Notes under the pieces: model-generated
Databases searched by the model: none
Told to the model about the DNA's origin: nothing
Seen by the model: only the letters and a program-made list of their open reading frames with translations
In this document: positions 10,536 to 36,978 of the stretch, in pieces
Layout of the letters: every line of letters begins with the position of its first letter
Position numbering within the stretch: the first letter of the stretch is position 1
Position numbers and translations under genes: made by a program
Source of the DNA: Deltaproteobacteria bacterium
GTDB lineage: Bacteria; Desulfobacterota; Desulfarculia; Adiutricales; JAFDHD01
Direction of reading: 5' to 3'
Length of the DNA: 52,649 nt
Assembly: GCA_019308995.1 (NCBI GenBank)
Contig: JAFDHD010000012.1
Coordinates: 1-52,649 of the forward strand

Positions 10536-10538
10536 CAT

Positions 10539-11845: not shown

Positions 11846-11890
11846 GGTTCAACAGGCTACTTAAAAATCATTATCAAATGGAGTTCAAGC

Positions 11891-12322
11891 ATGAGTGAAG
11901 AAAAGACTGGGAAAAAACAAGTACCCTTGAAGCCGGGTATATTCAGGATCCCTGACAAACCTGGCGAGAAGCCCTATCTGATTGCATCCCGGTGCAAGGA
12001 ATGCGGGAAGTATTTCTTTCCCCAGCGGACGATCTGCCTAAATTGCGGTCAGACGTCCCTGGAGGAAGCGCCTTTAAAAGGGCGAGGTAAGGTTTATACT
12101 TACACGGTGGCCCAGCAGCAGCTTCCGGGCGCGCTGGTGCAGGTGCCTTATGCCATTGCCATTGTATTGATGGAGGAGGGCTGCCAGATTCACACCGTGG
12201 TGACCGAGGACTGGGAGAATCTCGAAGTTGATATGGACGTGGAGGTTTACTTCGAGAAGATGAGTGAAGATCAGGAAGGCAACGACCAGCTCGCATACAA
12301 GTTCAGAGCTGTGAAGGCCTAG
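11891..12322 (+). CDS. DUF35 (Zn-ribbon / OB-fold) acyl-CoA-binding partner protein
   Basis: The 143-residue protein has the DUF35 layout. An N-terminal helix is followed by a rubredoxin-like zinc ribbon (CKECGKYFFPQRTICLNCGQ) and an OB-fold (GRGKVYTYTVAQQQLPGAL). Members of this family form complexes with thiolases. Examples are BbsA with BbsB in anaerobic toluene degradation, and the archaeal acetoacetyl-CoA thiolase/HMG-CoA synthase complex, where the protein helps pass acyl-CoA between sites. The adjacent gene at 12356 encodes a thiolase, and I infer that the two work together. A hydratase gene lies 45 bases upstream. Confidence 0.85.
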   Translation: MSEEKTGKKQVPLKPGIFRIPDKPGEKPYLIASRCKECGKYFFPQRTICLNCGQTSLEEAPLKGRGKVYTYTVAQQQLPGALVQVPYAIAIVLMEEGCQIHTVVTEDWENLEVDMDVEVYFEKMSEDQEGNDQLAYKFRAVKA

Positions 12323-12355
12323 TCGGGAAGTTATTTTCCGTGAAGGAGGAGAAGC

Positions 12356-13513: not shown

Positions 13514-13626
13514 AAAAGTCGCAGTGGCCTCCTGCGAGCCCTGTACAAGCTCCTCATCAGGGGTCAATGTTTTGAAAAGATTAACCTTCAGCACTTCGGG
13601 TCATGAAGAAACTTGGAGGAGGACAT

Positions 13627-14001
13627 ATGAAAAAAGGCATTCATCATGTGGGGCTCGCTGTCCGGAGCGTGGACGAAGTAGCCCGCTTCCTGAATGAGCT
13701 TTTTGGGGCTGAGCTTACCGATTATTCGATGGAAACAAATGAATTTTTTTCCCGCATGGTTCAAGTGGGAGAGGGGTTTTTCGAGCTGTTAGAACCCAGA
13801 GGCGCGAATGGCCTGATCGAAAGGTTCCTCAAGTCCAATGGAGAGGGGATTCATCACGTTTCAATGCTTGTCGAGGATCTGGAGGAAGTGCTGAAGGTCT
13901 GTGAAAAAAAAGGCATGACTGTCCTTGGCCGCCGTTTTATACATCCCCAAAGCGCCCATGGAATCCTGATCGAGCTTCTTCCAGCAGACGAATTAAAATA
14001 A
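13627..14001 (+). CDS. VOC-family protein, methylmalonyl-CoA epimerase-like
   Basis: The 124-residue protein is a single glyoxalase-fold (VOC) unit. Its motif set GIHHVGLAV, EGFFELLEP, GIHHVSMLV and GILIELLP supplies the His and Glu/Gln metal ligands found in methylmalonyl-CoA epimerase. That enzyme moves a proton at C2 of an acyl-CoA. The start is ATG 13627, because GGAGGAGG lies just upstream; an ATG eight codons earlier lacks a ribosome site. It is about ten residues shorter than typical epimerases and may act on another 2-methyl-branched acyl-CoA. It lies 113 bases after the thiolase gene and is probably part of the same transcription unit. Confidence 0.78.
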   Translation: MKKGIHHVGLAVRSVDEVARFLNELFGAELTDYSMETNEFFSRMVQVGEGFFELLEPRGANGLIERFLKSNGEGIHHVSMLVEDLEEVLKVCEKKGMTVLGRRFIHPQSAHGILIELLPADELK

Positions 14002-14087
14002 ATATTCTTTTTTGATAACGGCCTCGAAAAATTTCTGATCTAAGTCACAGTTCCGGTTGCTTAGGAGGGGTGGAGCTTTTTGTTGAG

Positions 14088-14112
14088 GTCATTCCTGCGA
14101 AGGCAGAAACCA
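14088..14112. repeat. REP-like intergenic palindrome
   Basis: The stretch GTCATTCCTGCGAAGGCAGA resembles the common short palindromic repeat GTCATTCC(T/C)GCGAA-GC-GGAA found in many proteobacterial chromosomes. TCCTGC pairs imperfectly with GGCAGA. Only one copy was seen in the window. Confidence 0.4.
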
Positions 14113-14220
14113 TATACTAAAAAAAAATAAGGACAGAATAGATATTATTATGATAACCGTCCAAGTTTTATTTTAAGCCCCTTTTAAAAAACAAGATAAC
14201 AAGGTTTTAGAGATTCTAAA

Positions 14221-14454
14221 ATGAATGACACGCCGCAACTGAGATTCATGTCCGATCTCATTGAAGATAATGGGAAGGTTTTAGGAGAAAACCCATACAT
14301 TTTATATGACGAGAAAGAAGTCAGTTATGCAGAATTCGACCGGGCGACCTGTGGCGCGGCAAATTTCCTGGTGGCTCAGGGCGCAAAGCCTGGGGATGGT
14401 CTGGCCATTCTCATGGGCAACTGCCCGGAGTTTTTAACAGGCGAAAACGGTTAG
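14221..14454 (+). pseudogene. N-terminal remnant of an AMP-forming acyl-CoA ligase
   Basis: The 77 codons match the start of AMP-dependent acyl-CoA ligases: a leader, then NPYILYDEKEVSYAEFDRAT and GAKPGDGLAILMGNCPEFL. Functional ligases are 500-600 residues long and have the nucleotide-binding and hinge motifs. Here the frame ends six residues after PEFL, and no other ligase motif follows before the next gene at 14507. I conclude that all but the first 70 or so residues have been lost, with a VOC gene now directly downstream. A complete ligase remains at 38689-40413. The short peptide may or may not be translated, since no good ribosome site is present. Confidence 0.65.
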
Positions 14455-14506
14455 CTGTTTATCAGGTCTCACAGAAGCACCCCATAAAAACACAAGGAGG
14501 TTTCGC

Positions 14507-15487
14507 ATGGCTGTTAACGTATCACCTCTGGTTCACATAGAAATCGCGGTACATGAAGCGGAAGAGGCATGTCAATTCCTGCACAACGTCTTTGGCGCGG
14601 AAAAGGTGCAGGAGGAGTTCGCCAGCTTTCTGGATGGACCCAACGCTAGGGTTATCCACGTCGGACTTGGCGATGTGGTGCTCCAATTCATCCAGCCCAT
14701 TGCCACACAGGGTTCCTGGTACGAGCAGTTGAAGACCAAGGGCCCGGGGGTGCATAATCTCACCTTCGTGGTGGACAGCATGGAAGAAACACTAAAGGCC
14801 TTGGAAGAAGAGGACGCTTCTCCTCTCTTTTCATTTCCCCTGGACTGGAGCAAGCTTATTGATCCCGCAAACCTCAAACCGAACGTGCCGCCGGTATATA
14901 TGATGAACACCATGGAGAAGATCGGTTTCCATTTGGAACTGAGTGAATCGCCAGCAGTGCAGGCGCCGGAAGCAGCAAAATATGCCACCGGGGCCGACGA
15001 ACTCATAGGTAACGTCTCGCCCATGCTGCACATCGAACTTGTCGTTCATGACGTGGAAGAAACATACCAATTCCTTCATAAGGTCTTTGGCTCGGAAATG
15101 GTGGAACAGGATTTTGCCCGGTTTTTAGACAGCCCGTTCATGAAAATACTGCATGTCAATCTGGGCGATGTGGTCCTGCAATACTGTCAGCCGCTTGTGG
15201 AGCAGGGTTCCTGGTATGAGCAATTAAGAGACAAGGGGCCTGGAGTGCACAACATTACCTTTATAGTTAATAATATGGATGAAACAATAAAAGCTATAGA
15301 GAGCCAGGGAGCTCAGGACCTTTTTACGTTTCCGCTTGACTGGGGTCAGCTTGTGGGTTCCGAAAATGTCAAGCCGAACGTCCCTCCGGTGCATATGGTC
15401 AACACCATGGAAAAGCTTGGGTTCCATCTGGAACTGGGCGAAAGGCCGACCGATAAAGAAATAAACTTTTTATATAAACAAGTCTGA
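14507..15487 (+). CDS. Tandem-duplicated VOC (glyoxalase-fold) protein
   Basis: The 326-residue protein consists of two homologous halves, about residues 3-150 and 168-318. Each half has the same series of motifs: HIEIAVHEAEEACQFLHNVF versus HIELVVHDVEETYQFLHKVF, LGDVVLQFIQP versus LGDVVLQYCQP, GPGVHNLTFVV versus GPGVHNITFIV, and GFHLEL in both. The His, Gln, His and Glu in these motifs match the metal ligands of methylmalonyl-CoA epimerase. Each half therefore appears complete, and the protein may hold two active sites or form a pseudo-dimer. AAGGAGG precedes ATG 14507. It directly follows the broken acyl-CoA ligase gene. Function beyond metal-dependent acyl-CoA or small-molecule chemistry is not clear. 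Confidence 0.8.
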   Translation: MAVNVSPLVHIEIAVHEAEEACQFLHNVFGAEKVQEEFASFLDGPNARVIHVGLGDVVLQFIQPIATQGSWYEQLKTKGPGVHNLTFVVDSMEETLKALEEEDASPLFSFPLDWSKLIDPANLKPNVPPVYMMNTMEKIGFHLELSESPAVQAPEAAKYATGADELIGNVSPMLHIELVVHDVEETYQFLHKVFGSEMVEQDFARFLDSPFMKILHVNLGDVVLQYCQPLVEQGSWYEQLRDKGPGVHNITFIVNNMDETIKAIESQGAQDLFTFPLDWGQLVGSENVKPNVPPVHMVNTMEKLGFHLELGERPTDKEINFLYKQV

Positions 15488-17547: not shown

Positions 17548-18792
17548 ATGCGTACAGTTAAAATTATTGGCGCCGCAATGACAAAATTTGGAAAACACCT
17601 GGATCGTAATCTGAAGTCTCTTGTGGGTGAGAGCGTTGAAGGCGCGCTCCAGGATGCCGATGTAACAAGGGAACAACTCGAAGGCGCCTGGGTTGGCAAT
17701 GCGTCCCAAGGCGTGCTGCAGGGGCAGGAAAGCATTCGCGGACAGGTCGTGCTCAGGGAAATAGGGATCGGCGGTATCCCGGTTGTCAACGTGGAGAATG
17801 CCTGTGCTTCCTCGGCTACCGCCCTGAACGGCGCCTGGGCCATGGTAGCTTTAGGCGAAATGGAACTCGCGCTGGTGGTGGGCATGGAGAAGATGTATTT
17901 TGAAGACCGCAGCCGCGTTTTTCCAGCCTTTACAGGGTGCATGGACGTTGAACTGCTGGCTCAGACCATGGCTTCGTTCAAAAAAGCGGAAGAACGAATC
18001 GAGCAGGAAAGGAAGGTTAAAGGAGAAGCCGAAAAAAAGAAGTCCGGACAGCGTACCGTGTTCATGGACGTATATGCCATGGCTGCCCGTTATCATATGG
18101 AACGATATGGCACCACCCAAAGACAGCTGGCAGTGATATCCTCTAAAAACCACTTTCACTCCTCCATGAACCCTTTGGCCCAGTATCAAACCAAGTTCAC
18201 CGTGGAGGAGGTTCTCGCGGCGCCTGAAGTGGCTTGGCCTTTGACCCGTCCGATGTGTTCTCCCATCGGGGACGGCGCTGCTGCTGCGATTGTTTGTTCT
18301 GAAGAGTTTGCCAAAAAAATCGGGGCGCAGCACACAGTGGATGTCGCGGCCTGTGTTATAGCCAGCGGTGCTGATCCAAAGGAGGGAGAGGAAAGGAGCC
18401 TGACGAAACTGGCTAAAAAGGCTTATGAAAAGGCAGGTATCGGCCCCGAAGACTTAGATGTGGCTGAAGTTCACGACGCCACTGCCATTGGTGAACTTAC
18501 ATCCACCGAGTCCTTGCTGTTCTGTCCAGAGGGTGAGGGCGGTCCCTTTGCCGAGGCCGGACACACCACCCTGGGAGGGAAACTGCCAGTTAACGTCTCA
18601 GGCGGCCTGGAATCCCAGGGACATCCCATCGGCGCCACCGGAATCCGGCAGGTGGTTGAACTCTACTGGCACCTGACCAACCGTGCCGGGAAAAGGCAGG
18701 TCCAAGGCGCCAGAGTCGGGTTGGCTCAAAATGCCGGTGGGACCGTGCGAGGCTCTGAAGGCGCCATGTCCGTGACTATCTTGAAAACGTAA
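17548..18792 (+). CDS. Thiolase-family acetyl-CoA acetyltransferase (SCP-x-like)
   Basis: The 414-residue protein is a second thiolase paralogue, longer than the one at 12356. The active cysteine is in VENACASSATALNGAW. The C-terminal catalytic His lies in SGGLESQGHPIGATGIRQ, and the last segment is GLAQNAGGTVRGSEG with a cysteine-poor ending. About 30 extra lysine/glutamate-rich residues (FKKAEERIEQERKVKGEAEK) are inserted after the first domain. Two features differ from the DUF35-partner thiolase: no DUF35 gene is adjacent, and the last catalytic Cys of the G-G-C-N type is replaced by NAGG. It may form or cleave a 3-oxoacyl-CoA. AAGAAGGAG is upstream of ATG 17548. Confidence 0.82.
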   Translation: MRTVKIIGAAMTKFGKHLDRNLKSLVGESVEGALQDADVTREQLEGAWVGNASQGVLQGQESIRGQVVLREIGIGGIPVVNVENACASSATALNGAWAMVALGEMELALVVGMEKMYFEDRSRVFPAFTGCMDVELLAQTMASFKKAEERIEQERKVKGEAEKKKSGQRTVFMDVYAMAARYHMERYGTTQRQLAVISSKNHFHSSMNPLAQYQTKFTVEEVLAAPEVAWPLTRPMCSPIGDGAAAAIVCSEEFAKKIGAQHTVDVAACVIASGADPKEGEERSLTKLAKKAYEKAGIGPEDLDVAEVHDATAIGELTSTESLLFCPEGEGGPFAEAGHTTLGGKLPVNVSGGLESQGHPIGATGIRQVVELYWHLTNRAGKRQVQGARVGLAQNAGGTVRGSEGAMSVTILKT

Positions 18793-19834: not shown

Positions 19835-20545
19835 TCAGTTCGCTATCTTCTCCTTGAGTAGCTGAATCGCCTTCGGAAGCACATCTGTTATCCCTTCCTC
19901 AAACCGAAGGTGGCATACGCGGTCAAAAGGTGTTTCGCCCTGATTGATAATAATCAACTTGGCGCCAGCCTCCATCGCCACTCTAGGCATGGTAGCCGCT
20001 GGAGTGACCACGAGGCTGGACCCCACGACGATGAACAGATCGCACTTCTGAGAATGCTCAAACGATTCCATGAGGTCTTTCGAGGGTAGAGAATCACCAA
20101 AGTCCACCACACTCGACTTTAAATCACCCCCACACTCACATTTTTCAACACCTTCTGATTTCGGGTAGGTCTTTTCGCAGCGCACACACCTGAGCCGCGC
20201 GAGGTTTCCGTGAAGTTCGGCCAGCATATCAAAAGGGATGCCGGATTTGAGGTGTAAGTTGTCTATGTTTTGAGAGATCAAAAAGGCGAGCTTCCCCATG
20301 TTCATCAGATCAACAATAGCCATATGGCCTTCATTGGGTTCAGTAGCAGTCCAATCCCGATCACGTGGTCTCGGCGCCAGCCCTTTGTCCCTGCGGGTCC
20401 AGACGCCGTCAGGCCCTCGAAAATCAGGAAGTCCTGAGTCTGTGCTGATTCCAGCGCCAGTGAAGATAACGAGTCTCTCGGCCTCGGCTATCCACTGGGC
20501 CAGAGTTTGAATCCGGTCCTCGAGATCCTGATCAGTAGTCGTCAT
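19835..20545 (-). CDS. Sir2-family NAD-dependent protein deacylase (SIRT6/7-like)
   Basis: The 236-residue protein has all core sirtuin motifs: TGAGISTDSGLPDFRGPDGV for NAD binding, SQNIDNLHLKSG, catalytic His112 in AELHGNL, and a zinc module with Cys120, Cys123, Cys136 and Cys138 (CVRC and CECGG). The enzyme removes acyl groups from lysines with use of NAD. The G-P-D-G-V-W-T and LAELHGN phrases resemble the SIRT6/SIRT7 branch more than E. coli CobB. In a bacterium with much acyl-CoA flux, a role in keeping acyl-CoA synthetases active is plausible but not shown. It is the first gene of a minus-strand pair. Confidence 0.88.
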   Translation of the reverse strand: MTTTDQDLEDRIQTLAQWIAEAERLVIFTGAGISTDSGLPDFRGPDGVWTRRDKGLAPRPRDRDWTATEPNEGHMAIVDLMNMGKLAFLISQNIDNLHLKSGIPFDMLAELHGNLARLRCVRCEKTYPKSEGVEKCECGGDLKSSVVDFGDSLPSKDLMESFEHSQKCDLFIVVGSSLVVTPAATMPRVAMEAGAKLIIINQGETPFDRVCHLRFEEGITDVLPKAIQLLKEKIAN

Positions 20546-20814
20546 CTTTAGCCTCCTTATGCGATCTGCCAGCTAACTAATGATTTTATTACAAAATGCC
20601 TCTGGATATTGTTTGTATCACTATTTATTATAATATTAAGGGAATATGGAAATATTCCCAGCCTCTTGTAAGACATCAGAAAGCAACTGCTTTTTTTCTT
20701 TTACACAGTGGCAGGATAACATTTAAATGAGCGGGGTCAAGAAAAAATAAATAGAACAAGGCCATGCATCCCTTGAATCAATAAAATCCAATCATAGGTT
20801 AAAAGTATGAGCGA

Positions 20815-22053
20815 TCAGCCTTCTATGGCCGATTTGAGAAGAGCGTGCAAGAGAACATTCGCCCCGGCCTCGCAGTCTTCCCAGGTTGTATTTTCCAATT
20901 CCACATGGCTTCGGCCGCCGATGCTTGGAACAAAAATCATGGCTGTCGGGGCGACCATCGCCATATAGCTGGCGTCATGTCCGGCCCCACTGACCATGGG
21001 GTGGGTTGAATACCCTAGGTGTTTGGCCGTCTTTATGATCTTTTCCACCAGACGCTCATTAAAAGGTGTGTGTTTCACCTTCCAGGTCTCCTCCAGCCGA
21101 AGAGAGCAGCCTCGCTCTGAGGCAATATTCTTAAAATCCTGTTTAACATCCTCCCAGGCTCTGGCGACCAGATCGTCATCCCACGATCTGATGTCTATTG
21201 TAATATGCACCTGATCCGGAATAATGTTTCGAGAATTGGGGTGATTGTGTATTTCACCCACCGTAGCGACCATGCTGCCTCCCATTCTGGCAGGGAGATC
21301 GTTGACCTTGAGAATCATCTCTGCCGCGGCACATAAGGCATCGCTGCGGCCTTCCATGGGGGTGGGGCCGACCTGATTCGCCGTGCCACTCACATACACG
21401 TCAGACCAGTGGAGGCAGAAGATGCCTTTGGGGACGCCAATGGTTTTGCCTTCTTTTTCTAAAATTGGACCCTGCTCGATGTGATATTCGTAGTAGGCAT
21501 GTATTGGCCAGCTTTTAGCAGGGGTATTTGTTTTATATCCTATTCTTTGCAGTTCATCCTCAAACCTTTTTCCATGAATGTCTGTCCTGCCATAAACCCA
21601 ACCAATATCCAGTTCGCCGGACCAGACACCAGAACCGACCATGGCAGGAGAAAAACGGGAGCCCTCCTCGTTCGTCCAGTCAACCACGACAACAGGCCTC
21701 CTGGTCTCAATGTTGTTGTCATTCAAGGTTTTTAGAACCTCAAGGCCTGCCATAACCCCGAGAACCCCGTCAAATCGGCCTCCTTTGGGTTGAGAATCGA
21801 GGTGTGAGCCGGTCATGACAGGGGAAAGGTCTTCCCTGCCAGGCCTCGTCCCGAAAATATTTCCCATCTCATCAATAACAACCTCTAGCTTCATTTCTTT
21901 AAGCCACTCGATCAACAGGTCCCTGGCTTTTTTGTCTTCATCCGACAGGGCCAGGCGGTGAACACCACCCCCGGAAGTTGCCCCAATTTTAGCCATGGCT
22001 TCCAAAGATTTTCGAAGGCGCGCCCCATTAACCCTCAGTGTGTCTGGTTCCAT
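20815..22053 (-). CDS. M20-family amidohydrolase (N-carbamoyl-L-amino acid hydrolase / allantoate amidohydrolase-like)
   Basis: The 412-residue protein has the M20/AmaB motifs. GSHLDSQPKGGRFDGVLGVM supplies His and Asp metal ligands, WTNEEGSRF supplies the catalytic and ligand Glu, and SGAGHDASYMAMVAPTAMIF is the distal His-Asp motif. Enzymes of this group hydrolyse N-carbamoyl amino acids, allantoate or ureidoglycine-type substrates. The substrate cannot be told from the sequence. ATG 22053 is favoured: AAAGGAG lies nine bases upstream, and an ATG eleven codons earlier has no ribosome site. Its length is normal for the family. It stands alone. Confidence 0.85.
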   Translation of the reverse strand: MEPDTLRVNGARLRKSLEAMAKIGATSGGGVHRLALSDEDKKARDLLIEWLKEMKLEVVIDEMGNIFGTRPGREDLSPVMTGSHLDSQPKGGRFDGVLGVMAGLEVLKTLNDNNIETRRPVVVVDWTNEEGSRFSPAMVGSGVWSGELDIGWVYGRTDIHGKRFEDELQRIGYKTNTPAKSWPIHAYYEYHIEQGPILEKEGKTIGVPKGIFCLHWSDVYVSGTANQVGPTPMEGRSDALCAAAEMILKVNDLPARMGGSMVATVGEIHNHPNSRNIIPDQVHITIDIRSWDDDLVARAWEDVKQDFKNIASERGCSLRLEETWKVKHTPFNERLVEKIIKTAKHLGYSTHPMVSGAGHDASYMAMVAPTAMIFVPSIGGRSHVELENTTWEDCEAGANVLLHALLKSAIEG

Positions 22054-22257
22054 CGAATAGCTCCTTTCATCTTTCTCCATGCCCAAACTAAGCCTTATAG
22101 CATATCTTCTCTTAGTTGATTACAATTAAAAATCGCCTTTAAAGGGTTGGGTTTTCAGTGTATAAAATATTTGCAGTAATGTTGATATTTATGGTAAAAA
22201 TTAAAAGGCTTTCAGGCTTACATTTCTAATTGAATCAGATTGCTCTGAGCATTACCC

Positions 22258-23055
22258 ATGGATATTTTCGACGACACCATAAAACAGATTAAACAATGGT
22301 TTAATCAAAAAGGAAACGAAGGGAACGTTTGGCAATATTTTACGCCCACATCGGCTCAAAAAATCAGGACTCATTCTCAGAATATCAATCAGGCCGGAAC
22401 GAATCCGCCTCTGATTTTAAAAGAGGACACCTGCCTCGAACTTGGCCATCCCTCAGTGGGTTCCTGCAACATGACCCTCGCAACCCACAATCCCTCGCTT
22501 GTTGAAAACGGCCGCATTACGCTGGTCGGTCCTGAGATTTCTGCAATGAAAACGCCAAAAGTCCCATTTGCACAGCTTGTGATCGTCTGCTGCCAAGGCG
22601 ATATAGGAGATACCTCTTCAAAGATGGACAGAGAGTTGCATCTATTCGTTCAATCCGATGGATACATGATCCGAAGTATGCCCAATCTGATCTGGGCCCG
22701 GGTGAGCAAGGATGCGGTCCGGTCAGGCTTTTCCATAAAAGAGCTTGGCTCAAGGATTTTAGATTCACTGAGCTTTGAATTTCAGGATATCACAAAGGCT
22801 GAGGTTTTTTTCGTCACCAGCAGCCGGGAGGACGTTTCCGCTCTGAATGACATCGTTGAGGCTGCACGCGGCAGGTTGCGAAAATTACTAGCATTTAATG
22901 TTGCTGATGATGGCACATATGAGTGTACGTTAGCGCTCGACTGTAACGAATGTCCGGAGCAGCCGGTATGTGACAGCATACGCGAAGTGATAAAGATTCG
23001 CAAAGGTGACCGCATCATCACGTTCGGCCAAGACGCTGTAAGCGAAACGAATTGA
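22258..23055 (+). CDS. Acetyl-CoA synthase beta-subunit (CdhC/AcsB)-like protein without the C-G-C nickel motif
   Basis: The 265-residue protein aligns from about residue 52 with CdhC/AcsB (acetyl-CoA synthase) as I recall it. Matching phrases are CLELGHPSVG for V-E-L-G-G-P, NPSLVENGRITLVGPEISAM for the D-G-K-x-T-V-I-G-P-E-L-S-x-M segment, RELHLF for R-R-V-H-D-F, and LIWARVSKDAV for I-W-x-R-V-S-K-D-A. The following region has four cysteines, Cys223, 229, 232 and 238 (YECTLALDCNECPEQPVC), near where the A-cluster [4Fe-4S] ligands lie in CdhC. The later C-G-C that binds the distal nickel is missing. It may be a truncated ACS-like scaffold or electron carrier. A CooC-type ATPase gene follows 63 bases later. 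No CO dehydrogenase is present. Confidence 0.65.
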   Translation: MDIFDDTIKQIKQWFNQKGNEGNVWQYFTPTSAQKIRTHSQNINQAGTNPPLILKEDTCLELGHPSVGSCNMTLATHNPSLVENGRITLVGPEISAMKTPKVPFAQLVIVCCQGDIGDTSSKMDRELHLFVQSDGYMIRSMPNLIWARVSKDAVRSGFSIKELGSRILDSLSFEFQDITKAEVFFVTSSREDVSALNDIVEAARGRLRKLLAFNVADDGTYECTLALDCNECPEQPVCDSIREVIKIRKGDRIITFGQDAVSETN

Positions 23056-23118
23056 TTCTGTCAATGCCCGACGCCAAGGCGTGCAGGCGAACTTGATCAG
23101 ATTTTTTTTAGGGATTTT

Positions 23119-23907
23119 ATGACCGCGTTAGCGTCACAAAAAAGGCTAGTCGCCGTCTGCGGCAAGGGCGGCAGCGGCAAGACCGCTCTGGTCGTTCTTA
23201 TAACCAAGTATCTCTTGCAAATCAGCCAGAGGAGGCTGCTGGTCATTGATGCGGACCCGACCATGAACCTTGCCCCGGTCCTGGGGGTGGAGGCCGAAAA
23301 AACAGTTAACGATATTCGCGAGAAGATTATTAAGGAGGCGCGGAGAGCCAGAGCCGCGGAACAATATCACCTGGCCCGCTCACTTGACTACATGCTGCTC
23401 GAAGCGCTCATAGAAACTAAAGAATTCAGCCTGCTCGTGATGGGCCGTCCGGATTCGCTTGGCTGCTACTGCCCGGTGAACGACCTGCTCAGGGAAGGCA
23501 TCGAGACCCTGACCAAGCATTTCGATGCAATCCTCATTGACGGTGAGGCAGGGGTAGAGCAAATAAGCCGGCAGGTGATCCGAAGCGTGGACACCACGAT
23601 CATCGTCTCTGACGTTTCCGGGCGCGGTTTTCAAACGGCAGCGCTTATCAAAAAAGTCATTGAATCTCATAAGATCATCAAATATAAAAAGATGGGCCTG
23701 GTTCTCAACCGGGTGCGCGGTGATGATTCAGCACTGCAGGAATACATCGCCCAAACAGGCCTCGAACTGTTCGGCTGCATCCCGGAGGATGAAAATATCA
23801 TGCGCTTCGACATGCAGGCCAGGCCCCTGCTTCAGGTACCGGATGATTCACCCGCCTTTATCGCTGTAAAGCAAATCCTTGCGCGGCTGGAATTATTAGG
23901 CCGTTAA
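23119..23907 (+). CDS. CooC/AcsF-type nickel-insertion ATPase homologue
   Basis: The 262-residue protein has a deviant Walker A (CGKGGSGKTA, residues 14-23), VIDADPTMNLAPVLGVE, and the diagnostic CooC segment GRPDSLGCYCPVNDLLREGI, with Cys116 and Cys118. In CooC the C-x-C pair binds nickel or zinc between two subunits, and ATP-dependent dimer changes drive metal insertion into CO dehydrogenase. AILIDGEAGVEQISRQVIRS and IIVSDVSGRGFQTA also fit the family. Here the client is not CO dehydrogenase, since none is nearby. It may serve the ACS-like protein upstream or another metal protein. The ribosome site is weak (TTTAGGG). Confidence 0.85.
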   Translation: MTALASQKRLVAVCGKGGSGKTALVVLITKYLLQISQRRLLVIDADPTMNLAPVLGVEAEKTVNDIREKIIKEARRARAAEQYHLARSLDYMLLEALIETKEFSLLVMGRPDSLGCYCPVNDLLREGIETLTKHFDAILIDGEAGVEQISRQVIRSVDTTIIVSDVSGRGFQTAALIKKVIESHKIIKYKKMGLVLNRVRGDDSALQEYIAQTGLELFGCIPEDENIMRFDMQARPLLQVPDDSPAFIAVKQILARLELLGR

Positions 23908-23971: not shown

Positions 23972-24757
23972 TCAGTTTGAGGGGTTGTGTCTTTCTTTGG
24001 CCAGGAGCGCCGCGCCAAGGGCGCCCAGAATCTGGGGATCGGGTTCGATTTTTGTCAGTTTCAGCCCTAATTCTTCTTCAACATATTTAACTACGCCGCT
24101 GTTTTTGGCCACGCCGCCCACCAGGGCCACCTGCTCGATTAAACTGATCCGCCTCACCAGCGAAGACACCTTGCCAGCCACGGAGCGGTTGATCCCGGCG
24201 ATAATGTCGGCTCTATCTTTGCCTTCATTGACGTAAGTGATGACTTCACTCTCGGCAAAGACGCCGCATTGACTGGTGATGGAAACAGGGTCTTTGGCGT
24301 CGAAAGAAAGCTGACTTATCTGATCGAGCGGCAGCTCCAGGGCCTTGGCCATGACCTCGACAAATTTACCCGTTCCGGCGGCGCATTTCTCATTGGTCGT
24401 GGAATCCGTTATCTTGCCGTTATCGCCGATATTAAAGGCCCGAATACTCTGTCCGCCTGCGTCAATGACCGTACGCACCTCTGGATGAAGCCATTGAATG
24501 GCGCGGTTGAGGCAAATAACCTCTGGGGCGTCTCCATCACTAAAGGGAATCGTCTTTCTCCCAAAACCGGTGGCTATCGTATGTTCTATCTGGTCCTGAG
24601 AGAGGCTGGCCCTGGAGAGAGCCTTTTCCATGACTTCAACGGCAGCCTGCTTTGGAAGGTTTTTATAGGCCAGAGTTTCAAAGTCCAAGATGGTGTCATT
24701 TTCAAGAAGGACCATCTTTGCCGTAACCGTACCCAGATCGCAGCCCGCATATACCAA
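23972..24757 (-). CDS. BCR / 2-hydroxyacyl-CoA dehydratase activator ATPase (BcrA/BcrD/HgdC type), paralogue 1
   Basis: The 261-residue protein belongs to the BadF/BadG/BcrA/BcrD ATPase group (acetate-kinase/actin fold). The motifs are VYAGCDLGTVTAKMVLLEND, IATGFGRKTIPFSD, VIDAGGQSIRAFNI, EKCAAGTGKF with Cys125, and SQCGVFAESEVI with Cys164. The two cysteines of each subunit hold a [4Fe-4S] cluster at the dimer face, and ATP hydrolysis pushes an electron to the partner reductase or dehydratase. I choose TTG 24757 because AAGGAG lies nine bases upstream and gives the family length; a much longer open frame would overlap the next gene. It is the last gene of the four-gene operon. Confidence 0.87.
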   Translation of the reverse strand: MVYAGCDLGTVTAKMVLLENDTILDFETLAYKNLPKQAAVEVMEKALSRASLSQDQIEHTIATGFGRKTIPFSDGDAPEVICLNRAIQWLHPEVRTVIDAGGQSIRAFNIGDNGKITDSTTNEKCAAGTGKFVEVMAKALELPLDQISQLSFDAKDPVSITSQCGVFAESEVITYVNEGKDRADIIAGINRSVAGKVSSLVRRISLIEQVALVGGVAKNSGVVKYVEEELGLKLTKIEPDPQILGALGAALLAKERHNPSN

Positions 24758-24794
24758 TTTCAGTCGCTCCTTATTCTTACTGCCTGATGTCGCC

Positions 24795-25574
24795 TTATTG
24801 CTTCGCTCTTTCAGCGGCAAAAATAGCCGCGCCCAAGGCGCCGATAATTTGTGGATCTTCGGGGAATCTGATGAATTTTTTTCCGAGCATTCGTTCGAGG
24901 TTTTGCACCACGCCAATATTTTTAGAAACACCGCCTGTCACGCCAATATCTTCTTTTACGCCTATTTTGCCAGCTAGCAGTTTAACGCGGCGAGCCATGG
25001 CCTCATTAATGCCAGCCGCGATATCAGCGACGTTCTTCTCTTCGCAGAGATAATGCATGATCTCCATTTCCGCGAAGATGCTGCACTGATTGGTGATAAC
25101 AAGCGCTTCGGAGGCTTTGAGTGAGAGGGGGCCGAGTTGAGACACATCAGTGCCAAGGGCTTCGGACATGAGTTCTAACGATCTTCCCGTTCCTGCGGCG
25201 CATTTATCGTTCATGACAAAGTCTTCCAAAAGGCCGTCTTTATCCACTTTAATTGCCTTGCAGTCCTGCCCACCGACGTCAATCACGGTCCTGATGGTTG
25301 AGACAAGCCAGTGAGCCCCTTGACCATGGCATGATATCTCACTAATATTGTCGTCAGCAAAGGAGATGGTTTCCCGTCCGTAACCGGTACTAATACAGTA
25401 AACAATAGCTTCATAGGAAAGCTCCAACCTTTGGAGCAACTTATCCATGACATCCCTGGCTGACTGCTCGGGCCTCGGTCTGACGCGAATAATCTCGGAT
25501 CCCAAGATCGTTCCATTGTCCAGAATCACAGCTTCAGCGGTCAGGGAACCAACATCACATCCTGCAACAATCAT
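24795..25574 (-). CDS. BCR / 2-hydroxyacyl-CoA dehydratase activator ATPase, paralogue 2
   Basis: The 259-residue protein starts MIVAGCDVGSLTAEAVILDN and has the same motif set as its neighbour: STGYGRETISFAD, VIDVGGQDCKAIKV, DKCAAGTGRS with Cys124, and TNQCSIFAEMEI with Cys164. Each of the two adjacent activators keeps its own cluster ligands and ATP motifs, so each could work alone or the two could form a heterodimer like the A/D pair of class I benzoyl-CoA reductase. Unlike Thauera BcrA, neither has the extra 150 or so residues. It begins ten bases after the stop of the reductase subunit gene, with AAGG close to the ATG. Confidence 0.87.
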   Translation of the reverse strand: MIVAGCDVGSLTAEAVILDNGTILGSEIIRVRPRPEQSARDVMDKLLQRLELSYEAIVYCISTGYGRETISFADDNISEISCHGQGAHWLVSTIRTVIDVGGQDCKAIKVDKDGLLEDFVMNDKCAAGTGRSLELMSEALGTDVSQLGPLSLKASEALVITNQCSIFAEMEIMHYLCEEKNVADIAAGINEAMARRVKLLAGKIGVKEDIGVTGGVSKNIGVVQNLERMLGKKFIRFPEDPQIIGALGAAIFAAERAKQ

Positions 25575-25584
25575 TTTTACGGCC

Positions 25585-26949
25585 TTAAACTAGTGTTTCA
25601 AAAAATTCTTCAAGCTGTTCTTTGATGACTGACATGGGAGTTATTCGCGCGTCCCAGCCGTCTCCTTCCAATCGCAGGGTCGGTATGCCCAGCTCTTTTT
25701 TTATGGCGTCGCTGACCAGCCTGTAAACGCCCCAGGCCTGTTTGCACGCGAGATGACCTGAAAAAACAGCGCAGTCAGCCTTATAGGTTTTTCCATAATA
25801 AAGCATATCCCAGAGCCAGTTGGCGTGCATGTCCCAGCTTCCGGCCAGCTGGCGGGTCATGGGCAGGTTAAACATCTCTTCCGCCAGCCCGTAGAGCATA
25901 CTGTCCACACTCGATGTATCTATATACGGATTGAAATCAAAGGCTGAAAGCACATCCATGAGATATGAAACGCCTATTTCGTCTTGAAACCACGAATAGA
26001 TGGAGCTGTCGAAATAAAAAAAGGTATAAATGAAAAAGACGCGAATCCTTTCTTCAGGCAGGACGTGTTTCCCCTTTTTCAGGCGGTCTTTGGATACCTC
26101 GAGGGCTTTTTTATAGTAGTCCACGGCTTCAGGGGTGCCGACCATCATAAATTTCGTACCGACGTGCTGCATGTTATAGTAGTTGGGCACCGGATTGGGC
26201 ACGTTTTTTTTCAGCTCGTTTATTTCAAAGAAGAGTTCAGTAGCTTGGTTCGTATAGTCCACGACCTCATGGAGGCGATCCGGGTCGAGCTTATGGCCCG
26301 TCATTTCCTCGATCGCCTTAACCGCGTTTTTAAACCCCCGCGCATAATAATCAAGCGCCCGTTTATCATGGTAATATGGAATATCAAGGTAAAGGGCCGG
26401 GATGTCGAATTTTTCAGCCATGTATTCAAAGGCCTTGGAATTAGGATCGCAGGAACCAAGGGCGCCGTTGATGATGAGATCGGGCTTCTCTAAGATTCCC
26501 GCCTCAAACAGGCCGATGACCCCCCTCTGAGTGGAACACATCGTGTCGGGCAGCCCGCGTTCAACAGCCAGGTCAAGGTATTCTTCAACCCCTTCCTCCA
26601 GGTTCTGCGCCATCGTGGTCAGGACTTCCACACATACCGGCACCATATTCAAGGCATGAAAGATTTCAGGAGCGAAATTGAAAGGCACGAACACGATTTT
26701 CTTTCCTTCATCCCTCGCGGTCAGCAGACTCCTCCAGTACTTTCCTGAGCTGCGGTTGAATATCGTAGATATCTCTCTAACGTCCGGATCCTTAAACATG
26801 GCCAGGAAGGTGGCTCTTCTGGATTCAGGCATCGCGTCAATGACAGCCTTCATCGCAGGGGATTCCAGGTCCAGATCATCGGGCAGGGCGGAAGCCAGCT
26901 CAAAGTTGGTTACTATCCTTTCAAGTGCGCTATTATTTTGAGTACCCAT
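25585..26949 (-). CDS. 2-hydroxyacyl-CoA dehydratase / benzoyl-CoA reductase family subunit (BcrB/HgdA-like)
   Basis: The 454-residue protein belongs to the HgdB/BcrBC family (two repeated flavodoxin-like halves around a [4Fe-4S] cluster). KKIVFVPFNFAPEIFHALNM, DTMCSTQRGVIGLFEAG with Cys138, NGALGSCDPNSKAF with Cys167, and HLACKQAWGVYRLVSDAI are in the places of the three cluster cysteines. The C-terminal TLRLEGDGWDAR matches the end of the second half. The family accepts the low-potential electron from the activator and reduces an aromatic ring or dehydrates a 2-hydroxyacyl-CoA. It is the larger of two subunits and starts two bases after the stop of the smaller one, with its ribosome site inside that gene. 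The substrate is unknown. Confidence 0.83.
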   Translation of the reverse strand: MGTQNNSALERIVTNFELASALPDDLDLESPAMKAVIDAMPESRRATFLAMFKDPDVREISTIFNRSSGKYWRSLLTARDEGKKIVFVPFNFAPEIFHALNMVPVCVEVLTTMAQNLEEGVEEYLDLAVERGLPDTMCSTQRGVIGLFEAGILEKPDLIINGALGSCDPNSKAFEYMAEKFDIPALYLDIPYYHDKRALDYYARGFKNAVKAIEEMTGHKLDPDRLHEVVDYTNQATELFFEINELKKNVPNPVPNYYNMQHVGTKFMMVGTPEAVDYYKKALEVSKDRLKKGKHVLPEERIRVFFIYTFFYFDSSIYSWFQDEIGVSYLMDVLSAFDFNPYIDTSSVDSMLYGLAEEMFNLPMTRQLAGSWDMHANWLWDMLYYGKTYKADCAVFSGHLACKQAWGVYRLVSDAIKKELGIPTLRLEGDGWDARITPMSVIKEQLEEFFETLV

Positions 26950-26951
26950 TT

Positions 26952-28079
26952 TTATCTCCTGATTCTTTCAAGAAATGCCTGAGCGCGCGTGCGGAGGCGG
27001 CCGGCGTCGGCTAAAGGTCCATACTGCCTCTCCAGCTCAATGGTCGGAATGCCCGCCTTCTCGAGGTCCATTTTTAAAAGGGCGTTATCCGCGCCATGCG
27101 TGTCGCAGAATTTTATATGTTCCAGAATGACCCCGTCAACCCGAGCGCGCTCGGCCTGTTCTTTCACAAAACCCAATCTTTCTGAATACTGCCCGGCCAT
27201 GCGCGGACAAGGCGCATGATAAAAATACCGATCAATAAGGGATTCAAAGACATCGCCGCTTTCGTCCGTCAGGTCCCAGAAATTCTTTGCCCCAAAGCAG
27301 AGCGCGTCAGAGACCACGATTGCGCCTAGGTCTTCCACGTTTTCAATAAATTCAGGATCATCCATCAGGCTGCCTGCAATGAGCAGCCGAATTTTTTTAC
27401 TAGACTCATTCTGGCTTGTTTCGGCCTCCTGAAGCAGCCGGTTCAATAACTTATTGAATTCACTCTTGGGCATGGCAGCGCTTGCCGATAAAATAGTGAG
27501 CACGTCGGCGCCAGAAAATGGAGTCTCATCACTTGCCCTTAAGTCATATAACTTTTTTAACAGACTTCTGGTCTCATTGTAAGTAGCCACCGCCGCGGCC
27601 AGCTTTTCTGGTGTAACCTCTACATGGAAATACTTCTCAACCTCTTCCTTGAGCTTTATGACTTCTTCTTTATACCACTGTCTTGCTTCAGGATTTATAA
27701 GGTGCGGAACAGGGAGCAGATACATAAAAGGGAGGGCGCTGGGATGAGCCTTCCAGTTATCAAAGGTTCGGCGGATGTGATCGCAGCCGTTTATAAACAC
27801 CACGCCGTCCAGGAAATCGAACCCACCGCTAAAACCCAGCTCAAGACAGCAGCGAGCAAAGGTGCAATTCACCCTGGTAAGATAAGAATCCGCCTGCGAT
27901 GTATCTTTTACTCCTTTGCCTGTAATCCTGTAAGGCAGGATATCCACAGCGTAGAGGATTTCTTCTGGGAGGTAAGAGCAGACAAACCCGACGACCTTTT
28001 TCCCTTGATCTTTCCAGTCACTGACGTATTTATTCTGATGAACCTCAGAAACTTCTGCCAGCTCTTCAAAAGCGCCCAT
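26952..28079 (-). CDS. 2-hydroxyacyl-CoA dehydratase / benzoyl-CoA reductase family subunit (BcrC/HgdB-like)
   Basis: The 375-residue protein has the length and layout of BcrC. There is GFVCSYLPEEILYAVDILPY, then CTFARCCLELGFSGGFDFLD with Cys72, 77 and 78, and GVVFINGCDHIRRTFDNW with Cys99. Later come VVSDALCFGAKNFW, HAPCPRMAGQ and HIKFCDTHGADNALL, followed by GIPTIELERQYGPL. These phrases are typical of class I benzoyl-CoA reductase subunit C rather than of the simple dehydratases, although the two groups share most motifs. It is the first gene of the four-gene minus-strand operon, preceded by TAAGGGG. The whole set resembles bcrCBAD in content. Confidence 0.84.
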   Translation of the reverse strand: MGAFEELAEVSEVHQNKYVSDWKDQGKKVVGFVCSYLPEEILYAVDILPYRITGKGVKDTSQADSYLTRVNCTFARCCLELGFSGGFDFLDGVVFINGCDHIRRTFDNWKAHPSALPFMYLLPVPHLINPEARQWYKEEVIKLKEEVEKYFHVEVTPEKLAAAVATYNETRSLLKKLYDLRASDETPFSGADVLTILSASAAMPKSEFNKLLNRLLQEAETSQNESSKKIRLLIAGSLMDDPEFIENVEDLGAIVVSDALCFGAKNFWDLTDESGDVFESLIDRYFYHAPCPRMAGQYSERLGFVKEQAERARVDGVILEHIKFCDTHGADNALLKMDLEKAGIPTIELERQYGPLADAGRLRTRAQAFLERIRR

Positions 28080-28598: not shown

Positions 28599-29819
28599 AT
28601 GGATTATTTTCCATTGATCGTGACGGAACAGGATAAAATGATCGCACAGGTTATTCGCAAATTCGTTGATCAGGAGATCATGCCTGTTCGGGACAAGATT
28701 GATGACGACACCGACCATGTTCTGATCAATGAAATTCTCTCCAAACTTGACGCCCTGGGTTTATTCCAGGCCGGATCACGAAGTGACGAGGGAGGGGATG
28801 CGCCGAGGCCCACGTTTGTTACGAATTGCATCGTGATCGAGGAAATGTCGCGGGGTGACGCCGGGATTGGAATGGTAGCGGTCATCAGCGGATGGGCCAT
28901 GGCCCCGGCTATCACCGTCAGAAACAGGGAAGTCATGGAGCTGTTTCAATCCATGGCGCAAAAAAAGTCGCCCTGCCTGGCCTGTTTTGCCATGACCGAG
29001 CCTGCAAGCGGATGCGATGTCGAGAATCTGCCTGAGCTTCACGGGCGCACCATCGCAACCCGCGCTGTCCAGGACGGAGACTACTGGGTCATTAATGGCG
29101 CCAAGAGATTTCCCAGCAGCGCTGGCGTATCCTCCCTTTACTGCGTCGCCTGCCAGGCTGATCCGGAAAAAGGTGAAGAAGGCATCGCCCTTATTTACGT
29201 GCCTGCTGATGTAAAAGGGCTCAGCTTTGGCAAGTTCGAGATGAAGGCCGGATTGCAGGCGGACCGTAACGCCGATATTTTTTTTGATGACGTCCGAGTG
29301 CCTTTATCCTACCGGGCCAGCGGACCGGGCCGGGATGCGGAGCTGCTTAAGAGCAACCTCACCAACGGCCGGGTCGGGACCGCGGCCGCGGCTATCGGAG
29401 TCGCTAAAGCAACTTTCGAGGAAGTCCTGAAATACACGGGCGAACGAGTCGTGGCAGGCAAACCGATTCGAGAGCATTCGATCGCTGCGGGCATACTGGC
29501 AGAGATGGCTATGGGCATTGAGATCGCCCAGGCGCATTGTCTCCAGGCGGCTTACATGCTCAGCCACCCTGAAGAGTTCGGGCCTCCCCATTCAGACGCC
29601 ATGCTTTGCCAGGCAAGCATTACCAAGAACTATGCCACGGAAATGGCTATCATGGTCACGAATAAGGCCATGGAGCTGATGGGCTCATACGGCTATATCC
29701 GTGATTACCATGTCGAAAAGTACTGGCGCGACGTGAAAGAGCTTCAGCTCTGGCTGGGCGGCGCGCAATTAGGACGCTTTGATGTCGTGCGCGGCTACTA
29801 CCCATACAAAAAAACCTGA
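28599..29819 (+). CDS. Acyl-CoA dehydrogenase-like flavoprotein lacking the usual catalytic glutamate
   Basis: The 406-residue protein has the acyl-CoA dehydrogenase fold: an N-terminal helical domain, CFAMTEPASGCDVENLPEL in the flavin-binding middle domain, WVINGAKRFPSSAGV, and the C-terminal helices. In ordinary members the C-terminal catalytic Glu lies in I-Y-E-G-T. Here the matching stretch is RDVKELQLWLGGAQLGRFDV, with Leu386 in place of Glu. The alternative Glu position of isovaleryl-CoA dehydrogenase is also not Glu (NLTNGRVGTAAAAIG). A different base or a different reaction is likely. It is followed 80 bases later by a second, conventional dehydrogenase. AAAGGAGG precedes ATG 28599. 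Confidence 0.85.
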   Translation: MDYFPLIVTEQDKMIAQVIRKFVDQEIMPVRDKIDDDTDHVLINEILSKLDALGLFQAGSRSDEGGDAPRPTFVTNCIVIEEMSRGDAGIGMVAVISGWAMAPAITVRNREVMELFQSMAQKKSPCLACFAMTEPASGCDVENLPELHGRTIATRAVQDGDYWVINGAKRFPSSAGVSSLYCVACQADPEKGEEGIALIYVPADVKGLSFGKFEMKAGLQADRNADIFFDDVRVPLSYRASGPGRDAELLKSNLTNGRVGTAAAAIGVAKATFEEVLKYTGERVVAGKPIREHSIAAGILAEMAMGIEIAQAHCLQAAYMLSHPEEFGPPHSDAMLCQASITKNYATEMAIMVTNKAMELMGSYGYIRDYHVEKYWRDVKELQLWLGGAQLGRFDVVRGYYPYKKT

Positions 29820-29899
29820 AGATGCTGCCACGGGTTGATGTCTATTTAAAAGCAACCTGAATTCGAGCGCCGCTCACTTCTCGTCAAGGAAGGAGAGTT

Positions 29900-31090
29900 A
29901 TGATTGATTTCGAAATAGCGCCATTGACCAAAGAAAGCCAAAGGCTAACGCGTGAGTTTAATCTAAATACGGTTAGAAGGGTTTCCCGTTATTATGATGA
30001 GCATGAGCATGAGGAGATAAAGGAAGTAGAGGAGATCACGGAAAAATCAGAGGCTATTTCCAGAAAGTTAGCTTCACTGGCAGGAGAAAAACAGGGTGAA
30101 GGGTTTAGCATGGCCAGTGTCATCATAGGCGAGGAGAGATGCTGGGGCGATGCCGCCCTGAACATAAGCATCTCCAACGCCTTTGTCGGAAACATGGTTG
30201 TAGGCGCTATCGGCTCTCCTGAACAAAAGGCTCGTACGGCCGGTAAATTTGTGGCCTTTGCCATCACCGAGCCGGGTTGCGGTTCAGACACCTCGGCCAT
30301 TCAAACCACGGCTCAGCTCGACCCTGAAACTAATGAATGGGTCATAAACGGCGAGAAAATCTTCATCACCGGGGGGCGTCTTTGTGAGTTCGCTGTGGTC
30401 TGGGCCACGCTCGACCGAAGCCTGGGCCGGGCCGCTATAAAAAGTTTTTTAATAGAAAATAATAATCCGGGCATGACCGTAACCAAGCTCGAAAACAAGC
30501 TCGGATTCCGGGCCTCGGATACAGTAACACTGGTCTTTGAAGACTGCCGTATTCCTTACGACGATATCTTAGGCAGCCCGGAGATTAAACCGAAAACGAC
30601 TTCCAAGACAGGGTTTAAAAGCGTTATGGCGACCTTTGACGCCAGCCGGCCTGCCGTGGCCGCTTTGGCGGTGGGTATCGGCCAGGCTGCGCTGGACTTC
30701 ACCAAAGAGAAGCTGGAACAAGAAGGATTCACCTTCCCTTATGACCGGGGCCAGCATGCGCTTCAGGCCATTCAGGCCTCAATCCTGGACATGGAAGCAA
30801 ATATCGAGGCGGCGCGTCTCCTGACCTGGCGATCAGCATCCATGCTTGAAACCGGGCAGCGAAACAGTCTCGAAGCCTCTATGGCCAAGAGCAAGGCCGG
30901 ACGGACCGCCACCCTGGTCACGGAAAAATGCGTGGAACTCCTTGGGCCGCTGGGATATTCACGTAATTGGCTGGTCGAGAAGTGGATGCGGGATTGCAAG
31001 GTTACTGACATCTTCGAAGGTACAGGTCAAATTAATTCCTTAATTATTGCCCGCAACATTTTAGGCTTCTCTCGCGACCAGCTGAAATAA
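29900..31090 (+). CDS. Acyl-CoA dehydrogenase
   Basis: The 396-residue protein has complete dehydrogenase motifs: AFAITEPGCGSDTSAIQTTA, WVINGEKIFITGG, FRASDTVTLVFEDCRIPYDD and the catalytic Glu373 in DIFEGTGQINSLIIARNIL. It uses FAD to introduce an alpha,beta double bond into an acyl-CoA and passes the electrons to Etf. An EtfBA pair lies 4 kb downstream. The N-terminal 60 residues are rich in Glu and Lys (EHEHEEIKEVEEITEKSEAI), more than usual. AAGGAAGGAGAG precedes ATG 29900. The gene is probably co-transcribed with the preceding dehydrogenase and ends before a strong hairpin at 31144. Confidence 0.88.
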   Translation: MIDFEIAPLTKESQRLTREFNLNTVRRVSRYYDEHEHEEIKEVEEITEKSEAISRKLASLAGEKQGEGFSMASVIIGEERCWGDAALNISISNAFVGNMVVGAIGSPEQKARTAGKFVAFAITEPGCGSDTSAIQTTAQLDPETNEWVINGEKIFITGGRLCEFAVVWATLDRSLGRAAIKSFLIENNNPGMTVTKLENKLGFRASDTVTLVFEDCRIPYDDILGSPEIKPKTTSKTGFKSVMATFDASRPAVAALAVGIGQAALDFTKEKLEQEGFTFPYDRGQHALQAIQASILDMEANIEAARLLTWRSASMLETGQRNSLEASMAKSKAGRTATLVTEKCVELLGPLGYSRNWLVEKWMRDCKVTDIFEGTGQINSLIIARNILGFSRDQLK

Positions 31091-31143
31091 CCCGAATCAG
31101 AAGAAATTAAAAATAACGACAGGAAAAGGCGTAAATGGAATAA

Positions 31144-31189
31144 AAAGCCTCCCGAGGGACGACCTGCTAGGCAACCCTCTGGAGGCTTT
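31144..31189. terminator. Long hairpin between convergent genes (terminator-like, repeat family)
   Basis: AAAGCCTCC (31144-31152) pairs with GGAGGCTTT (31181-31189), and GAGGG pairs with CCCTC inside, with one mismatch and a 16-base loop. It lies between the end of the dehydrogenase gene and the end of the minus-strand 3-hydroxyacyl-CoA dehydrogenase, so it could stop transcription in both directions. A related hairpin is at 40557-40593. Confidence 0.6.
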
Positions 31190-31235
31190 GAAAGTAATAG
31201 CTTGAAGATATTTCCTTATAAGTGAGCCTGTTTTT

Positions 31236-32009
31236 TTATTGCCAGCCGCTTCTGGCGCCTGGCCCTCCGAGTGGAAGGGGGCCGGCCGGCCAGTTGAATC
31301 CCAGCCTCATGGCCGTATTGACGTCCTCAGCCGTGGCGATTCCTTGCTCAACAATCTTCAGGGCCTCTCGCCTGGCGGCAAACATGACACGATTGCCAAT
31401 GAACCCCGTATCTCCAGGCACATCCTTCACCCGAACCGGGGTCTTGTTCCAACTCTTGGTCAGGTCTTCGAGCAGCTTTATTACATCTTCAGAAACATCC
31501 GGAGTATAGGTCACTTCGACCAGTTTCATGATGTTGGCCGGGCTGAAGAGATGCATCCCGATGAACCGATCCTTGCGTTCAGTGGCCACTGCCAGGTCGG
31601 CAATGGTAAACATGGAGGTATTGCTGGCAAAAATAGCTTCCTTCTTTACAATCTTGTCCAACTCGGCAAAAACCTTAAGCTTCATGTCCTTGTTCTCAAT
31701 GGCGCCGTCCGCGCCGCCTCCGATGGCCTCAATGATCAGATCGCAGTCCTTCAAGTCCTCAACTTTTGTCGTGAAGGTAAGTCTTGCCAGGGCCTGGTCC
31801 ATCTCCTCCTGGGTGTGTTTACCTCGTTCGACACCACTTTTTATTCCAAACCGACCGTTAATGATTGTGTCTTTAGCCTTTTCGCAAATTTCGTCTGTTA
31901 GATCGCGGACAATGACATTGTAGCCAGCGAGAATGGCCGACTGGGCAATACCACCTCCCATCACACCGGCGCCCAAAATTCCAATTTGTTTAATGTCCTC
32001 CAGGTTCAT
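31236..32009 (-). CDS. 3-hydroxyacyl-CoA dehydrogenase, C-terminally truncated
   Basis: The 257-residue protein has the Rossmann start IGILGAGVMGGGIAQSAILA, the catalytic His in GMHLFSPANIMKLVEVTYT, the PF00725 start GDTGFIGNRVMFAARREALK, and DVNTAMRLGFNWPAGPL. Whole enzymes of the PaaH/HBD type continue for about 55 residues after M-G-P-L. Here the frame turns into PLGGPGARSGWQ and stops. The lost part contributes to the dimer face and CoA pocket, so activity is uncertain. I could not find the missing tail in the next bases in any frame. GAAAGGAGG precedes ATG 32009. If active, it would oxidise a 3-hydroxyacyl-CoA with NAD. Confidence 0.8.
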   Translation of the reverse strand: MNLEDIKQIGILGAGVMGGGIAQSAILAGYNVIVRDLTDEICEKAKDTIINGRFGIKSGVERGKHTQEEMDQALARLTFTTKVEDLKDCDLIIEAIGGGADGAIENKDMKLKVFAELDKIVKKEAIFASNTSMFTIADLAVATERKDRFIGMHLFSPANIMKLVEVTYTPDVSEDVIKLLEDLTKSWNKTPVRVKDVPGDTGFIGNRVMFAARREALKIVEQGIATAEDVNTAMRLGFNWPAGPLPLGGPGARSGWQ

Positions 32010-35953: not shown

Positions 35954-35957
35954 AACC

Positions 35958-36977: not shown

Positions 36978-36978
36978 G

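Follow-up and report, generated by a model that had tools for sequence, protein, structure and literature searches.

Among the most strongly reducing reactions known in biology are those of the double-cubane reductases. Nickel enzymes are few, with a 2018 review reportedly counting nine. In the class I benzoyl-CoA reductase BzdNOPQ, the [8Fe-9S] double cubane of BzdN is ligated by Cys36/73/100/263/293/327 and the [4Fe-4S]-OH2 cluster of BzdO by Cys95/128/380 (PMC11971306). The HadBC and HgdAB dehydratases and the double-cubane protein DCCP share the PF06050 fold and activation by ATPases, and partners resembling CooC or acetyl-CoA synthase (ACS) are not described for these known systems. CooC-type ATPases, including AcsF, insert nickel and serve CO dehydrogenase (CODH) and ACS. 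CooC-1 has a metal site at its dimer interface, where Cys112 and Cys114 take up Zn, or a single Ni for each dimer; tight Ni binding is not common to all CooCs (PMC6006190). In ACS, the middle domain contacts CoA (PMC12289521).

Here we analyze a locus in a 52,649-nucleotide stretch of DNA, the whole of which we call the window, where genes for a short ACS-like protein and a CooC-type ATPase lie beside those of a reductase resembling BzdNO. Such a coupling of a predicted double-cubane reductase with an ACS domain and an ATPase of the nickel type occurs in several bacterial phyla, one Asgard lineage, and a cultured sulfate reducer. We found no description of such a module in the open-licence papers searched; an earlier description may exist.

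A Short ACS-like Protein

The first gene of the pair (22258–23055, plus strand) encodes 265 residues that a first-pass annotation, made from the sequence alone, had likened to AcsB/CdhC. The motifs behind that assignment are all present: ELGHPSVG (from E61), ENGRITLVGPEISAM, IWARVSKDAV, and Cys223, Cys229, Cys232, and Cys238. The protein continues for 27 residues beyond Cys238 and, as the annotation had also stated, stops short of a C-G-C motif. It scores 56.9 bits against the Pfam CdhC profile PF03598 (cut-off 24, E = 3e-15), which is likewise matched individually by 78 of 78 members of the short family. In a sequence search of the PDB, the significant matches are ACS chains only (E about 1e-9), and a profile built from 12 family members improves the ACS match to E = 7e-21.

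The structure-prediction comparison with ACS that the annotation had proposed gave a significant match to the ACS beta family. AlphaFold (AF2) models reached a pLDDT of 76 with 12 sequences and 85.5 with 78 sequences, and the best 23 Foldseek matches of these models are all ACS, with E values down to 8e-13 and an rmsd of about 2.8 Å over 170 columns. The matched region comprises the middle domain, A2, and the start of A3; A1 and the part of A3 that carries C-G-C are absent.

The protein shares with AcsB/CdhC (PF03598, TIGR00316, NF040764) the A2 domain, a conserved W-x-R segment, and the Cys positions that open the A-cluster region, whereas the short family has no A1, nearly no A3, no C-G-C, and no fourth A-cluster Cys. 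Its members span 240–280 residues, compared to 460–740 for AcsB/CdhC. The 265-residue protein falls well below the cut-offs of the NCBIfam ACS equivalogs (59.5 vs 800 bits and 39.6 vs 356 bits), and in a tree of 78 short members and 19 full-length ACS sequences the two groups are split by one long, fully supported branch.

The in-gene TGA codons reported for two relatives (L007 and L008), considered as selenocysteine codons, are sited at the ordinary gene end. A second short PF03598 match in one genome (L199, G135:C1 near 210244–210690) is not a family member; it comes from an ACS that is split into frames of 307 and 143 residues. This split ACS adjoins genes for a TetR-like regulator and an ABC binding protein and looks like a decayed ACS.

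The Cys-rich tail was compared in an alignment of 79 family members. Its codons lie at 22924–22971 (+) and encode Cys223-x5-Cys229-x2-Cys232-x5-Cys238. The CX2CX5C portion (Cys229, Cys232, and Cys238) does not vary among the 78 members whose tail is complete, and Cys223 is facultative (31 of 75). This pattern differs from the CX2CX8CX9C spacing of the four Cys residues that bind the A-cluster [4Fe-4S] in ACS, and the C-G-C domain for the distal Ni was not found anywhere in the short-family alignment. An alignment with 14 full ACS sequences sets Cys223, Cys229, and Cys238 against the first three Cys positions of the A-cluster, and Cys232 against the position of Phe512 of M. thermoacetica ACS, an alcove residue close to the proximal Ni (PMC11321310). 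This register is only suggestive, because gap placement decides it and the model is weaker in this region (pLDDT 58–79). On the strength of its invariance across the alignment, the CX2CX5C motif points to probable metal binding by the ACS-like protein.

A CooC-type ATPase with an Intact CXC Motif

The next gene (23119–23907, +) encodes a 262-residue ATPase in which the CooC motifs reported earlier are readily found: a deviant Walker A, GKGGSGKT, and an intact CXC within GCYC. Of the PDB entries, CooC1 (3kje) matches it best, along the full length (E = 5.9e-12), and GCYC aligns to CYC of that protein. The predicted metal motif, Cys116-Tyr-Cys118 (23464–23472, +), thus stands where CooC-1 has Cys112 and Cys114, and the deviant Walker A (GKGGxGKT) is likewise shared with CooC/AcsF. 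An alignment of the partner CooCs shows CXC kept in 61 of 61.

The differences from CooC/AcsF lie in the setting. CooC/AcsF is associated with CODH/ACS, whereas the CooC described here keeps company with a BzdNO-like reductase and an ACS-like fragment and also occurs in genomes without CODH. In the four CODH-less genomes checked with a CooC profile, CooC and ACS-like copies are equal in number (2/2, 1/1, 1/1, and 1/1). Five genomes (G063, G104, G442, G111, and G073) have no CooC beside the ACS-like gene and encode a CooC of the module type elsewhere (E < 1e-80).

A BzdNO-like Reductase Converges on the Pair

Four minus-strand genes arranged as an operon, HGD2-HGD1-activator-activator (28079–23972), converge on the ACS-like/CooC pair. 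In the window, these are two convergent transcription units rather than a single operon. HGD2 (26952–28079, −; PF06050) is a BzdN-like subunit whose best PDB match is BzdN (8s02_B, E = 8e-55). Its Cys 34/72/99/261/291/325 match the six double-cubane ligands of BzdN and are kept in 74 of 74 module sequences, predicting an [8Fe-9S] double cubane. HGD1 (25585–26949, −; PF06050, 191.9 bits) is a BzdO/HadB-like subunit with PDB matches to HadB (E = 1e-11) and BzdO (E = 4e-8). Its Cys 138/167/402 correspond to the three BzdO cluster ligands, are conserved in 100%, 100%, and 87% of 93 sequences, and form a predicted catalytic [4Fe-4S] site. Most module BzdO-like subunits carry a fourth Cys at the position equivalent to window residue 91 or 416, which the HGD1 of the window lacks; this extra Cys might be a fourth protein ligand of the catalytic cluster.

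Both activator ATPases are of the BcrAD/BadFG type and score above the TIGR00241 cut-off. The first, which is BzdP/Q-like (23972–24931, −; PF01869, 155.9 bits), probably has its true start downstream of the listed GTG. The second occupies 24795–25574 (−; PF01869, 180.9 bits).

The module therefore shares with BzdNOPQ a six-Cys BzdN-like subunit, a three-Cys BzdO-like subunit, and BcrAD-type activators. The NCBIfam Bzd equivalog scores are far under their cut-offs (N, 180.7 of 453.8; O, 42.2 of 448.6; Q, 199.5 of 380.2), and the module reductase therefore represents a different subfamily. It forms a clade separate from BzdNOPQ, has the added ACS-like and CooC genes, and near the second catalytic-cluster Cys reads CD in place of the Cys-Ser-His stretch of the Bzd type.

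Stretches of the window on both sides of the locus (11012–13513, 17548–18792, 28599–32009, and 35147–40416) make up a region of CoA-ester catabolism, with genes for two acyl-CoA dehydrogenases, thiolases, an enoyl-CoA hydratase, electron-transfer flavoproteins, a GlcD-like oxidase, and an acyl-CoA ligase. These genes offer a hint of the substrate class of the reductase. Upstream of the pair on the opposite strand, 19835–22086 (−) encodes a Sir2-type deacylase and an amidohydrolase of the hydantoinase/carbamoylase family, in which we saw no sign of a connection with the module.

The Pair and the Reductase Form a Conserved Module

The first-pass annotation had called the ACS-like gene an orphan while suspecting a link of the pair to the reductase operon. 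The former description does not survive a wider search; the link is real and conserved across phyla, both in gene neighborhood and in the clade of the reductase. A scan of GTDB genomes with a single degenerate pattern, which undersamples relatives, returned 59, from Desulfobacterota, Chloroflexota, Actinomycetota, Ignavibacteriota, Binatota, and Jordarchaeia. Most genomes carrying the module are metagenome-assembled, and an isolate, the cultured sulfate reducer Desulfatibacillum alkenivorans DSM 16219, is among them. The contig scan of genomes used a six-row alignment. The plasmid records searched contain no relative.

We pooled 80 distinct loci from all searches and counted neighbors in the 45 with 5 kb or more of flanking sequence on each side, a count that the annotation had suggested. 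PF06050 genes (BzdN/BzdO-like) lie no more than 6 kb from the ACS-like gene at 40 of these 45 loci; the same holds for activators at 40 and for CooC at 39. Genomes carry 5–16 PF06050 genes each, and we therefore estimate that about 3% of random positions would have such a neighbor. Even with many loci truncated, CooC lies within 250 bp of the ACS-like gene at 59 of the 80. A typical order is HGD2-HGD1-ACT-ACT-ACS-like-CooC, where ACT denotes an activator, and the genes often overlap. In D. alkenivorans (L051), the operon reads ACS-like (9818–10816), CooC (10813–11568), HGD2 (11574–12716), HGD1 (12461–14131), and activator (14157–14948).

A maximum-likelihood tree of the BzdN-like subunit places 74 of 74 module sequences in one clade with support of 97/90 (midpoint-rooted, the root being for drawing only). 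Of 21 paralogues taken from these genomes, just four join this HGD2 clade, each in a genome that has the pair elsewhere, and nine other six-Cys paralogues of these genomes sit outside it.

Presence and absence across genomes agree with this picture. Among 394 Desulfobacterota genomes of 90% completeness or more, with HGD2 clade membership set at 400 bits or more, 26 have both the short ACS-like protein and an HGD2 of the clade, 1 has the short protein only, and 6 have the HGD2 clade only (Fisher p = 7e-34, uncorrected for relatedness). In G073, the one genome with the short protein only, that protein lies beside an acyl-CoA dehydrogenase; this is not a real exception, because the reductase, activator, and CooC are present on another contig (HGD2, 402 bits locally). 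Two of the six HGD2-only genomes (G258 and G440) have contigs broken at the locus. The association of the pair with the reductase is strong, and as a pattern of gene neighborhood it is no proof of physical interaction.

A Possible Role in Metallocofactor Assembly

We judge it roughly an even call that the two genes are devoted to the metallocofactor of an undescribed clade of acyl-CoA reductases, ATP-dependent enzymes with an [8Fe-9S] double cubane. In such a system, the ATP-driven activators would push electrons into the double-cubane subunit, from which they would move on to the catalytic [4Fe-4S] subunit that reduces the CoA ester; this sequence of events is established for the Bzd family and is extended here by analogy. 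CooC, at the expense of ATP, would supply the reductase system with a metal, for which nickel is the most plausible candidate. The ACS-like protein could act between CooC and the reductase as a metal- or cluster-carrying adaptor or extra subunit, using its A2 domain and Cys tail. The regular companionship of the pair with this benzoyl-CoA-reductase-related branch in many anaerobic microbes suggests that the branch needs a metal, perhaps nickel, that has so far not been looked for.

A more specific version, which we put forward only tentatively, is that the clade consists of nickel or heterometal enzymes into which CooC loads the metal via the trimmed ACS domain, yielding an ATP-driven Ni/[8Fe-9S] acyl-CoA reductase. 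If true, this would be a nickel enzyme type not described so far.

Modules without the ACS-like gene bear on which protein CooC serves. Five loci (G135, G140, G379, G211, and G051) have HGD2-HGD1-activator-CooC and no adjacent ACS-like gene, and the CooCs of all five keep CXC. Neither a short nor a full ACS was found genome-wide in G051 and G211, and G211 also lacks CODH. The ACS-like gene is therefore dispensable in some lineages, and CooC, being kept in its absence, is the more constant partner. The reductase system, and not the ACS-like protein alone, is a likely client of CooC.

These loci also weigh against a scheme in which CooC serves no protein but the ACS-like one and the reductase works as an ordinary Fe-S enzyme. 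The ACS-like protein would then be a small Ni/Fe-S protein, with a trimmed A-cluster, that acts as an electron carrier or as a CoA-ester-binding subunit. The known service of CooC-type ATPases to CODH/ACS, the alignment of the tail with the first three A-cluster Cys positions, the close spacing of the two genes, and their equal copy numbers in the checked CODH-less genomes are all consistent with this scheme. Against it stand the retention of CXC at the five loci, the two genomes without any ACS-like gene, and the missing C-G-C that holds the distal Ni, and we regard it as somewhat unlikely.

Another possibility is that the pair serves Fe-S maturation of the double cubane, with CooC acting like NifH or ApbC and the ACS-like protein as a scaffold, without nickel. 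CooC does belong to the MinD/NifH ATPase superfamily, and the pair goes with a single clade of six-Cys subunits. However, BzdNO, which has the same two cluster types, is obtained from E. coli complete with its clusters, the [8Fe-9S] cluster of BzdN forming there without such helpers (PMC11971306). The chemistry itself can thus do without the pair. Nine six-Cys paralogues of the module genomes also fall outside the HGD2 clade. On both grounds we reject a general requirement of double cubanes for the pair and find a pure Fe-S maturation role quite improbable.

The dedicated metallocofactor reading also has to be set against one in which CooC loads the reductase only and the ACS-like protein is a metal-free structural or regulatory sensor of CoA esters. 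The contact of A2 with CoA in ACS (PMC12289521) and the persistence of CooC where the ACS-like gene is absent would suit such a division of labor, but the invariance of CX2CX5C in 78 of 78 members speaks for a bound metal and makes a metal-free sensor very hard to credit.

Relation to CODH/ACS

The annotation's remark that there is no CO dehydrogenase is correct for the window and fails genome-wide: contig C140 of the same genome encodes CODH, a full-length AcsB (737 residues), and AcsC, and this AcsB carries CGCC and the full set of A-cluster Cys residues. The acs genes and the pair lie apart, so that the pair is not an ordinary part of an acs cluster. The earlier proposal of a pared-down ACS-like protein with its own CooC ATPase outside the acs cluster is thus upheld by the homology and by the conserved pairing.

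The short protein occurs in 27 of the Desulfobacterota genomes: 12 of these have a CODH above the TIGR01702 cut-off, 1 (G109) has only a CODH fragment, and 14 have none over the cut-off. We called CODH with TIGR01702 because PF03063 could not tell CODH from hybrid cluster protein. The 14 genomes are 94–100% complete and have no full ACS, and their CODH matches are weak (hybrid cluster protein-like) or absent. That the pair might be an accessory or decaying part of the CODH/ACS machinery, placed beside the reductase by chance, fits the CODH, AcsB, and AcsC of its own genome but is contradicted by these 14 genomes, by the neighborhood conserved across phyla, and by the long branch separating the short family from ACS, and can be dismissed as barely conceivable. 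Since 14 of 27 short-protein genomes have no detectable CODH or full ACS, small PF03598 matches and CooC genes in metagenomes should not be taken as evidence for the Wood-Ljungdahl pathway.

Other Genes near the Module

Several further genes recur around the module. A 224-residue family with no Pfam or NCBIfam match is encoded directly 3' of the ACS-like gene at four loci (L045, L046, L047, and L052), at three of which no CooC was found nearby. A 492-residue protein, also with no match in Pfam or NCBIfam, lies near the module at 12 loci (e.g., L080:1776–3254), and a 395-residue protein with a C-terminal 4Fe-4S dicluster domain at 12 loci as well (L091:6848–8035), in both cases mostly in Desulfobacterota. 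A GMC-type flavin oxidoreductase recurs near the module at 15 loci, again mostly in Desulfobacterota (e.g., L088:1204–2499).
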